64,000 nt of DNA from Aliidiomarina sanyensis (GTDB lineage Bacteria; Pseudomonadota; Gammaproteobacteria; Enterobacterales; Alteromonadaceae): assembly GCF_003987175.1 (NCBI RefSeq), contig NZ_PIPM01000004.1, positions 62,001 through 126,000 of the forward strand. The letters are read 5' to 3'. The position numbers were made by a program, and so were the translations under genes. Positions within the stretch are counted from its first letter, which is position 1. Every line of letters starts with the position of its first letter. This document shows positions 54,700 through 58,515 of the stretch, in pieces. Below the pieces are notes generated by a model. It searched no databases and was not told where the DNA came from. It worked only from the letters and a program-made list of their open reading frames with translations.

Positions 54700-55851
54700 C
54701 TACACCATGGGTCGAACGCCCTTTCCGCCCTTGCCTTTCCCACGCCAGAACGAACTTATGCCATCTGAATAGACCATCAACCAGGTCAACCCAATGAGCA
54801 CGATGCCCAGAAAAAAGGCGAGACCGCGACGGTACGTACTGGCCGTATAGACACCACCGGAGCCAACCGGAACCGCTTCGTCTGGCGCGATGGGCAATCC
54901 ATGGCGTTCCGCCATGGTGTTCACCCCAATAAAATGAATTGCCGGCACACGCTCGCGCAAGAAATACCCCATCACGGTGTCCACGGCAAATGCCCGAGCG
55001 GGCGCACTGCGCTGCAATCCCGAACGGAACTGGCTATCAATCCCGGGAGGACCCACAATGGTCGCTCCGCCCCCGACGTTCACAAACGCAGCATAACGAC
55101 GTCCGCCCGAGTGTTCGCGGTACAAGGCAATACGGTCAGCGACCGCTTCTTGGTAGTTATTCGGTTCGAGCAAGCGGATATCCGCCCGCTGAATACTCTG
55201 CCGCACACTTTCAACCCCTTCACGAGGCAGATCCGCTCCACGGTCCTCAACACCACCGATGGAAGCGGCAATGGGTTTAAGCGAGATAAGACCAACGGCT
55301 CTTAGCTCTCGCTCCATATCAAGCCATAACATATTCGGAATATTGGCACCCCATTGCGACGATGAGCCCGATGCGATAATAACCGGCTCAGCTCCCATCG
55401 CTTCGAGGGCCGCATACACCGCCAAGTTCAAGCCAGGAAACGAGCCCGATACCGCAACCGCCACGAGATCACCCTCTTGCACGCCCGCTTCGGCAAGCAG
55501 CTTAACCGCCACCGCAGCCCAGTTAGGATTCACCGAGGTTTGCTTCGATTCCAGTCCCCCGCGCGTGGTGGTGACAATACTGGTCGCTGACCCAATCAGT
55601 CCCGACCGCTGCGGATCAAACTCTGGATTAATGGGCTCGACTTGACCTCGAATGGGCCGGATGACCTCAATTGCATCACGCACCGTCCGCGAGGCGGTCA
55701 CCATGGTGGCATAATGTGCTTCAACGATCGGATCGCGTTTTTGCACGCCTTCTGCAATGGCGAAAATCAGGATTGCGGCAAGCGCGAGGAATACCAAACC
55801 CCACGTCGGGACCTGAGACGAACGCCAATAGATTTTTGTGTAGCTTTTCAT
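54700..55851 (-). CDS. Poly-gamma-glutamate system protein, PgsW type
   Basis: A 383-residue protein with one N-terminal and one C-terminal membrane helix and a large domain between, which would face the periplasm. GDLVAVAVSGSFPGLNLAVYAALEAMGAEPVIIASGSSS and FVNVGGGATIVGPPG fit the poly-gamma-glutamate system protein family found beside pgsBC in bacteria without pgsA. Its biochemical step is unknown; a role in export or chain handling is inferred. AAGGAGAGAAGCC precedes the ATG at 55849-55851. It is the last gene of pgsB-pgsC-pgsW. Confidence 0.85.
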   Translation of the reverse strand: MKSYTKIYWRSSQVPTWGLVFLALAAILIFAIAEGVQKRDPIVEAHYATMVTASRTVRDAIEVIRPIRGQVEPINPEFDPQRSGLIGSATSIVTTTRGGLESKQTSVNPNWAAVAVKLLAEAGVQEGDLVAVAVSGSFPGLNLAVYAALEAMGAEPVIIASGSSSQWGANIPNMLWLDMERELRAVGLISLKPIAASIGGVEDRGADLPREGVESVRQSIQRADIRLLEPNNYQEAVADRIALYREHSGGRRYAAFVNVGGGATIVGPPGIDSQFRSGLQRSAPARAFAVDTVMGYFLRERVPAIHFIGVNTMAERHGLPIAPDEAVPVGSGGVYTASTYRRGLAFFLGIVLIGLTWLMVYSDGISSFWRGKGKGGKGVRPMV

Positions 55852-55862
55852 GGCTTCTCTCC

Positions 55863-56438
55863 TTACCAACCGGGAACACGGAATGCTTGTGATGCCTCAT
55901 ACGCGGCGAGCGTTTCAGGCATAATCACAATCAGTGTCAGACGCACCAAGACAGCCGTCACTGCGAGCCCACAGAGGGTTTGCAAGACCCCTTGCCGGTC
56001 AAACCAAATGGCGATCAAACCCGGGATGATGTAGCCGATGATGCTACTTTCCATCACCGCCATCATGAGTGGGTATTCGAGCTGCGCTACTTTCGCTTCC
56101 GCATCGCCGGTTTCAGCAACCATCTGCAAATCCATGAACGCGATTACATTACCCAAGAACAGATCGAAGAAGCCCGCAATCAAGTACCCGGTTAAAATCA
56201 TAATGATGGTTTGCCGGCGTCCATAGATAATGGCGTAACTTGCAATCAACCGAACAATTGCAAAGGTGAGCCATGCGGCCACCAACGTGACCGTAATATT
56301 AAGCGGATTCATCAGTTGCAACGCCATGTAGCCGGGAACCACCAAGCCTCCGGCAGCCAGCCCAAACACTTGGCTAAGTAGCAGGGTAAAAAAGAGGCCA
56401 ATGCCGATCGCGACGGCCAAGATATTCAGGGCAATCAT
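55863..56438 (-). CDS. pgsC: Poly-gamma-glutamate biosynthesis protein PgsC
   Basis: Membrane subunit of the polyglutamate synthase, 191 residues with about five hydrophobic segments. The AAGGLVVPGYMAL and GYIIPGLIAIWFDRQG stretches are typical of PgsC/CapC. It would anchor PgsB and help move the growing chain. The ATG overlaps the pgsB stop (ATGA), and pgsW follows after eleven bases. Confidence 0.92.
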   Translation of the reverse strand: MIALNILAVAIGIGLFFTLLLSQVFGLAAGGLVVPGYMALQLMNPLNITVTLVAAWLTFAIVRLIASYAIIYGRRQTIIMILTGYLIAGFFDLFLGNVIAFMDLQMVAETGDAEAKVAQLEYPLMMAVMESSIIGYIIPGLIAIWFDRQGVLQTLCGLAVTAVLVRLTLIVIMPETLAAYEASQAFRVPGW

Positions 56439-57640
56439 AAATCTTCCTCCACCGTCGCACGGTTATGGAAGAATCGAGCAACCTCTTCTCCTCCCCCATG
56501 AATATTTGCCATTCCAACAACCAGCGCATGGCGGTCACTTTCTTCCAAGAGCGTTTCTGTGATCTCCACCATATCCGCATTCTCCAACACCAGAATTTTG
56601 TTGGGATCGAGTCCCGCTTTCAGCCCAAACCGAACAAAGATGGAGGTTCCACTTCCCATCACGATATAGCGATCGGCAGCGGGCCAGGTGACCACGGCTT
56701 CAGCAATCTGCATCGAGCGATGGGGGCGATCCGCCCGACAATTAATCAACGCAATTTTGCGACGGTCTTTTCCTTGGCTCTGGCATAACTGGGTCCAAAT
56801 ACGGCCCGTAGACTCGGGATCATTCGCTGCAAAGGCGTTCACAAAAATAATGTCCCGTTCAAAATAATTGACGTGTAATAGCCGCATCGCACCGGTTTCA
56901 GGCTCAAGGGCAATCATTCCTTTGAGAGCGTCTTCCCGTGACACGCCGAGGTGAGCACACACTTTCAATGCGAGCGCGACATTTTCTGCATGCTCCGCAT
57001 ACTGAAACTGACTCAAAGTATCCTTGTCGATGGCCTCAACTTCATCGTACGACACCTGATGTAACGTGCTTTTACGGTCGTCACAGGCCATCTGAAAAAC
57101 ATCAATCAAGTCATGTTCAGCGGTGAATAGCGCACCGTGCACAGGACTGCTGCCCGCGAGGGCCAATGCCACATCACGCTCGCCTGGCCCCATCACATCG
57201 AGGTGGTCCGCTCGTGCGTTGGTGACCACACCGACGTTGGAACGGACCATCTTTAATTCCGTCAATGATTGATAATGAGGTTGCAGGGCCATGCATTCGA
57301 GCACGGCGATTTCAGGTTTGATTTTGGCCATGCGTTTGAGTAAACGCATTTGCTCAATGATGTTGGCTCCGGCCACTCGGTACAGGGGAAACTCACGACC
57401 ATCCGGATCGGTATAGGCGGCGGCGGAACCTGTGGTCTTGGCACAGACACGTTTTCCCCCACCGCGGAGGCCCGCCGCAATCAGGCGCGTTACGCTGGTT
57501 TTCCCACGCGTGCCGTTGACATGCACGCGGACTGGAATTTGTTCGACAATGCGTTTGTGCCGCCACGCTTCCCAAAGAACTGCGACCACTAACAAAAACC
57601 ACAAGGCCAATGTCATGGCCAGCATATCAGGTAACCCCAT
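56435..57640 (-). CDS. pgsB: Poly-gamma-glutamate synthase PgsB
   Basis: ATP-dependent amide ligase of the Mur-ligase kind that polymerises glutamate through gamma bonds. From the ATG at 57638-57640 (GAAGGAGTCGCC before it) it has 401 residues: a membrane helix at 5-24, the P-loop GTRGKTS (43-49) and family sequences such as RADHLDVMGPGE and IALINCRADRP. An upstream in-frame extension crosses the inverted repeat and is not used. It is the first gene of the operon; no pgsA/capA or depolymerase gene follows within the window. Confidence 0.93.
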   Translation of the reverse strand: MGLPDMLAMTLALWFLLVVAVLWEAWRHKRIVEQIPVRVHVNGTRGKTSVTRLIAAGLRGGGKRVCAKTTGSAAAYTDPDGREFPLYRVAGANIIEQMRLLKRMAKIKPEIAVLECMALQPHYQSLTELKMVRSNVGVVTNARADHLDVMGPGERDVALALAGSSPVHGALFTAEHDLIDVFQMACDDRKSTLHQVSYDEVEAIDKDTLSQFQYAEHAENVALALKVCAHLGVSREDALKGMIALEPETGAMRLLHVNYFERDIIFVNAFAANDPESTGRIWTQLCQSQGKDRRKIALINCRADRPHRSMQIAEAVVTWPAADRYIVMGSGTSIFVRFGLKAGLDPNKILVLENADMVEITETLLEESDRHALVVGMANIHGGGEEVARFFHNRATVEEDL

Positions 57641-57660
57641 GGCGACTCCTTCACGTGATT

Positions 57661-57682
57661 CCTCTTTACGTGTGTAAAGAGG
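57661..57682. promoter_or_regulatory. Perfect inverted repeat before pgsB
   Basis: CCTCTTTAC and GTAAAGAGG are perfect nine-base arms with a four-base centre, ending 20 bases before the pgsB start. A possible promoter (TTGCTT 57708-57703, 16 bases, TATACC 57686-57681) would overlap its edge, so a repressor bound here could block transcription; alternatively the RNA hairpin affects translation. Confidence 0.5.
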
Positions 57683-58282: not shown

Positions 58283-58515
58283 GCAAAACCTACCTTGGAT
58301 AAATCACTGGGCGAAAAGGAAATTCGTAAAAATCCAGTATATGCCCACTTTGCGGAAACGCAATGGGGGATATCACTTACGTAGACTCCACGAAGCCCTT
58401 GCAGCGACTTGTCGTTGAAATACGCAAAATCACCGAGTTTTAGTGCCTCCAAGTAAAAAACTGCGTTAGGGTGAAGTTTGTTATCTCTCACACAACCCAC
58501 ATGAGGACCAGATTC

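Follow-up and report, generated by a model that had tools for sequence, protein, structure and literature searches.

The window, a 64-kb stretch of the genome of Aliidiomarina sanyensis, contains a pgsB-pgsC-pgsW operon for poly-gamma-glutamate synthase, intact and with its three genes tightly packed on the minus strand. Operons of this kind are already known; what appears new is a GTAAA direct repeat upstream of pgsB, a candidate control site kept in most relatives examined. The explanation that best accounts for these data jointly, to which we assign a probability of roughly 0.6, is a PgsBCW polyglutamate synthase whose genes would be activated through the GTAAA repeat by an OmpR-family regulator, likely CpxR. 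Our analysis partly supports the first-pass annotation of this DNA, which read the locus as a polyglutamate operon: that reading seems correct overall with two corrections, namely that PgsW is not a mere stand-in for PgsA and that a palindrome before pgsB is not a conserved control site.

In the operon, pgsB (57640-56435) encodes a Mur-ligase-type poly-gamma-glutamate synthase subunit of 401 residues, pgsC (56438-55863) a hydrophobic membrane subunit of 191 residues, and pgsW (55851-54700) a 383-residue protein in which an alpha/beta domain is modelled between two near-terminal hydrophobic helices. The first two genes overlap by ATGA, 11 bases separate the pgsC stop from the pgsW ATG, and a Shine-Dalgarno-like AAGGAG (57651-57646, minus strand) precedes the pgsB ATG at 57640. 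PgsB scored 479 bits against TIGR04012 (equivalog cut-off 222.7) over residues 11-391 and 38.3 bits against PF08245, PgsC 107.6 bits against TIGR04011 (equivalog cut-off 96.45) and 103.5 bits against PF14102 (cut-off 27), and PgsW, encoded beside both, 327.8 bits against TIGR04332 ('poly-gamma-glutamate system protein'; subfamily cut-off 100), which places each in its TIGR family and bears out the three compact pgs genes claimed at first pass. The PgsB translation reads GTRGKTS, which we take to be the P-loop. When the window was compared with A. halalkaliphila and A. indica, its two closest relatives and members of the same genus, the proportion of nonsynonymous differences (pN) across pgsB, pgsC and pgsW was 0.035-0.086 versus 0.68-0.80 for synonymous ones (pS), the synonymous sites being near saturation, and the operon is therefore under purifying selection.

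The GTAAA repeat was first noted on reading 20 upstream regions, where its halves are spaced by 5 or 6 bases. For its test, 34 loci were reduced to 25 non-redundant ones by shared 8-mers (L020, L024, L025, L028, L029, L031, L064, L070 and L071 being dropped). Within 250 bases, with both strands considered, 23 of the 25 upstream regions had a match of at least 9 of 10 letters, whereas 200 shuffles averaged 2.6 and never exceeded 7. When only 160 bases of the sense strand were considered, repeats this close to GTAAA-N5/6-GTAAA preceded 21 of 25 pgsB genes versus 6 of 133 further genes of those loci (Fisher 4e-17, relatedness uncorrected). The repeat was also found in all 11 non-redundant loci of L061-L074, whose upstream regions were inspected only after the motif had been noted, and L061, L062, L066 and L068 share one version of it with L013. 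In a motif-free count, GTAAA was the top sense-strand 5-mer (23/25 loci versus 7.9 expected) and GTAAAG the top 6-mer. The window's version is a direct repeat, CTAAA-N6-GTAAA (CTAAATGATTTGTAAA; 57740-57725, minus strand), that starts 100 bases before the pgsB ATG. Downstream of it, a weak -10-like TATACC (57686-57681, minus strand) keeps its position in close relatives. A TATA-like hexamer follows the repeat at a distance of 38 in the window, L014, L015 (there to the third-ranked candidate) and L016, versus 27 in L018 and L019, a difference of about one helical turn; the other loci are ambiguous.

A published consensus for CpxR is GTAAA-(N)4-8-GTAAA, and CpxR sites lying some 50-200 bases ahead of the start codon are favoured as the functional ones (PMC12802237). 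The window's box agrees with that consensus at 9 of 10 letters, a fit that other OmpR-type regulators could share, and given this likeness we propose that pgsBCW is activated by CpxR or a close regulator of the OmpR family. A second 9-of-10 match to the repeat, GTAAA-N6-GTATA, lies at 58326-58341 on the plus strand, before the neighbouring S10-peptidase-like gene.

We turn now to PgsW, which was detected in 12 of 96 relatives. A sample of 395 genomes from the family gave 40 carriers, spread over 6 of 52 genera, and a sample of 398 from the phylum gave one, the window's own. PgsB scored over its cut-off in exactly the same 12 of the 96 relatives, and the order B-C-W recurred in 20 loci of one set and 17 of another, with two loci common to both. 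A search for PgsA (PF09587) gave no match in the whole genome (99.53% complete) while it was positive in 7 of 14 control genomes; the absence of pgsA asserted by the first-pass annotation thus extends beyond the window, and the operon is not of the Bacillus pgsBCA(E) type, in which PgsA is encoded with pgsB and pgsC. Across the 40 PgsW genomes, PF09587 found no match in 31 and a match in nine: in G035 and G055 the PgsA homologue is encoded immediately after pgsW, in the same orientation, forming a pgsB-pgsC-pgsW-pgsA row; in G007, G501 and G627 a strong match is on a contig other than that of the operon; and in G043, G531, G557 and G642 the sole match, near E 1e-7, is away from the operon. Since the operons occur with and without PgsA, we argue that PgsW is a distinct partner of PgsB and PgsC and not simply a replacement for PgsA. 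The earlier wording, PgsW in place of PgsA, is only partly right given the rows of G035 and G055. We regard it as rather improbable that PgsW simply takes over the function of PgsA: the 31 genomes lacking a PF09587 match would fit that view, as would the modelled form of PgsW, membrane-anchored with one large domain like PgsA, but it is countered by the four-gene rows and by the failure of PgsW to match any Pfam family, PF09587 included.

In the structural model of PgsW, helices at residues 16-36 and 339-369 bracket the alpha/beta domain. The whole model, from an alignment of nine sequences, had a mean predicted local distance difference test score (pLDDT) of 61.5, and the domain alone (residues 104-337) was better, with pLDDT 74.5 and a predicted template-modelling score (pTM) of 0.80. 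Invariant residues across 13 sequences, with identity to the window's protein down to 25%, include S-x-S-F-P-x-x-N-L, S-x-x-G-x-N and F-x-N-x-G-G. The modelled domain looks Rossmann-like, without a convincing relative. The best Foldseek match had E 6e-4 and a template-modelling score of about 0.2, and the best by VIA-align 2 a Z of 8.2, a level that is common, with Rossmann-type and adenylating-enzyme half domains among the matches, so that we claim no family from either. A sequence search against solved structures at E 0.01 returned nothing for PgsW alone, for a PgsW profile or for PgsB alone; PgsW gave single-member matches only against Pfam at a loose cut-off, and a literature search gave no publication on it among the 20 of 24 matches listed.

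By homology, PgsB and the membrane protein PgsC would join glutamates through their gamma-carboxyl groups at the inner membrane, driven by ATP. PgsW, anchored near each end, would hold its Rossmann-like domain in the periplasm and, as the constant partner, probably takes up the growing chain or passes it on. Transcription would start from the weak -10 promoter upon activation by an OmpR-family response regulator, most likely CpxR, at the upstream GTAAA direct repeat, and the product would be an envelope-protective polyanion. More speculatively, in halophilic Idiomarina-type bacteria PgsA-free PgsBCW polyglutamate might belong to the Cpx envelope-stress regulon and serve as a protective polyanion made on demand, perhaps periplasmic, rather than as a constitutive capsule. 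The polymer, if made, might act as an osmolyte or a surface layer, as suggested at first pass. The saline context invoked for the host at first pass holds; members of the family need NaCl for growth, with one exception (PMC6193092), and saline-linked polyglutamate has been published for Natrialba and halotolerant Bacillus megaterium (PMC3815933). pgsBCW is annotated in several Gram-negative lineages. The conserved upstream repeat points to a concrete and testable regulator candidate, and the carriers of this repeat are environmental bacteria.

Several points weigh against this overall reading. The polymer itself is predicted from the genes, and the PgsW model is shallow at nine sequences only. 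The loci compared are related, so that 21 of 25 are not independent; the repeat is perfect in only 4 of 25, many matches having one mismatch, and L021, L022, L023 and L026 fail the sense-strand test, L022 and L023 being the two loci with pgsA. In the window itself the box departs from the motif at one letter and shares bases with a terminator stem; sites of this quality have a density of about 0.011 per 160 bases on each strand of the window's contig, and 4.5% of other genes are preceded by one. Finally, a rough motif-based scan that covered 175,650 of the 177,650 bases of this contig found no response regulator, and cpxR was not searched for genome-wide.

A less favoured but still tenable alternative is that the operon yields short gamma-glutamyl chains or some other product and no polymer coat, as suspected for Francisella capBCA. 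PMC4688374 reports capB and capC to be dispensable for the Francisella capsule, which also bears on our own reading and calls for caution in equating pgs genes with a coat; moreover, one table in PMC5362203 lists Francisella capA as 'poly-gamma-glutamate system protein', and the operon studied here has no outer-membrane export gene. Set against this alternative are the PgsB score, far above the equivalog cut-off, the Gram-negative Fusobacterium nucleatum, whose polymer has been demonstrated (by a title cited in PMC3815933), and the presence of pgsBCW in another member of the Fusobacteriaceae.

The palindrome before pgsB is, as described at first pass, a perfect inverted repeat, CCTCTTTAC-ACAC-GTAAAGAGG (57661-57682, minus strand; arms of 9, gap of 4), 20 bases before the pgsB ATG. 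Its proposed overlap with a promoter stands to the extent that the weak TATACC is kept in position in close relatives, but a consensus scan found no sigma-70 site. Among 5,000 shuffled versions of this 135-base stretch, 0.36% contained at least one perfect repeat (arms of 9, gap up to 10) and none contained two; the real stretch holds two, the palindrome and a terminator stem. The whole window has 9 such repeats versus a mean of 3.1 in 30 shuffles, and hence they are not rare in this DNA. A genome search allowing up to 3 mismatches found the palindrome here (0 mismatches) and at one other place (3 mismatches). Alignment with the two closest relatives showed the left part, GTTATAnnTCTTTACA, retained in both and the right arm missing; around GTTATAnnTCTTTACA, A. 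indica carries a separate, imperfect palindrome with 8 of 9 pairs, a level that 7% of shuffles equal. The operator role once assigned to the palindrome is therefore not supported by the comparison, the right arm being absent in the two closest relatives and another element, the GTAAA repeat, being conserved across most loci, and we read the palindrome as a putative lineage-specific addition, either an operator or a 5' mRNA hairpin.

It is conceivable, though we would not favour it, that the palindrome acts in RNA, forming a 5' stem-loop that either makes the pgs mRNA more stable or affects how accessible AAGGAG is. Nine base pairs closing a loop of four bases, close to where the transcript is expected to start, would suit this role, which needs no regulator and would allow fast turnover, matching what was seen; on the other hand, the 61-base leader folds only modestly better than shuffles (z -1.53), there is no match to an Rfam family, and the transcript start is an expected position only. 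Somewhat less probable still is an operator role, in which a repressor of the operon would bind the palindrome. The improbability by shuffling of a perfect 9-4-9 repeat in this stretch and its place adjoining the -10-like element favour an operator, as do a different palindrome at a similar place in other loci, ACATACA-N4-TGTATGT in L013, L066, L067 and L068 and with one mismatch in L063 and L065, located 14-53 bases before the pgsB start, and the occurrence of at least 8 of 9 pairs in 8 of 25 loci versus 1.4 expected. Yet the right arm is absent in the two closest relatives though the left part is kept, the sole other copy in the genome precedes a gene that reads like part of an efflux pump, and the immediate neighbours, as far as searched, included no regulator gene. 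Separately, CTTTACAATTGTAAAG occurs at L033:1504-1519 (G000:C45:104001-104016), just before a frame that by eye resembles an adaptor of resistance-nodulation-division efflux, and the same 16 letters are found in G002, G006 and G013.

Upstream of pgsB on the same strand is tspO (PF03073), and between the two lies an intrinsic-terminator-like hairpin (57729-57705) with a T run (57704-57698; both minus strand), whose RNA fold of -17.7 kcal/mol (z -4.67) upholds the terminator placed before the operon at first pass; the region has 10 terminator-like sites versus 6.3 expected. That the GTAAA repeat is a by-product of upstream-gene terminators and not a regulator site is improbable, for although its second half runs into a terminator-like stem in the window, L014 and L015, it occurs before pgsB in loci with several kinds of upstream gene and before no more than 6 of 133 other genes, and its distances to the TATA-like hexamer are the 38 and 27 given above. 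On the downstream side a major facilitator superfamily (MFS) gene converges on the operon, with 18 bases between the two stops. No degradation enzyme is adjacent, as had been stated, among the neighbours seen; two gamma-glutamyltransferase genes are elsewhere in the genome.

In a comparison of 14 loci, the flanking genes were common as a block to the window and its two closest relatives only, other loci having other contexts; viral contigs contributed none, and the G+C content of the operon (54.5% versus 51.8% for the window) is not telling. Of the 17 genomes of the genus, 14 have the MFS neighbour used in the empty-site test (E below 1e-190), and tspO was not found beside the MFS gene in genomes without PgsW, in the 1.5 kb fetched per site. 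In G005, which has its pgs operon on another contig, a tspO-like frame and an MFS gene flank a single 153-residue frame with no pgs genes (L090:649-2784); this arrangement is suggestive of an operon that moved into or out of the site, and is not a clean empty site. An idea involving periplasmic glucan was uninformative, since none of the 17 genomes of the genus has MdoG, whether or not it carries PgsW. Five genomes without PgsW (including G044, G068 and G072) have frames of about 1,360-1,400 residues with a PgsB-like ligase stretch that scores 192-220 bits against TIGR04012, below its cut-off, such as L101:3787-7857 and L102:3541-7668 (both minus strand); of two scanned, one had no Pfam family and the other weak HEAT repeats only.

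Compared with Bacillus pgsBCA(E) or capBCAE, the window's operon has the PgsB and PgsC families in common but PgsW and no PgsA; Bacillus pgs is regulated by DegSU and ComPA (PMC5751247). The G035 and G055 rows share the B-C-W order, but there pgsW is followed by the PF09587 protein, which has 707 residues in L023 and is represented by frames of 566 and 106 residues, possibly interrupted, in L022, and their PgsB is only about 40% identical. Plasmid-borne pgsB-pgsC pairs elsewhere have other neighbours, an NlpC/P60 protein in Streptomyces and a gamma-glutamyltransferase in Corynebacterium. Francisella capBCA, studied as a virulence locus and important for virulence, comprises three genes homologous to the Bacillus cap locus, with the polymer not shown there; capA, on whose locus number PMC5362203 and PMC4688374 disagree, has been suggested as an inner-membrane partner of CapB and CapC (PMC4688374). 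Francisella capBCA may be the same arrangement as pgsBCW, capA being likened to PgsW by annotation and not by sequence. NCBIfam already names pgsB-pgsC-pgsW systems, one example being plasmid p1 of Cetobacterium somerae (L034), with the same three genes in the same order and no pgsA annotated in the stretch shown, in gene tables (PLSDB) that are incomplete. Unlike the window's operon, which has none of these adjacent, that of Cetobacterium is preceded by ggt, DUF6305, tripartite ATP-independent periplasmic (TRAP) transporter and succinylglutamate-desuccinylase-like genes, which together with pgsBCW may form a make-and-break unit for the polymer.

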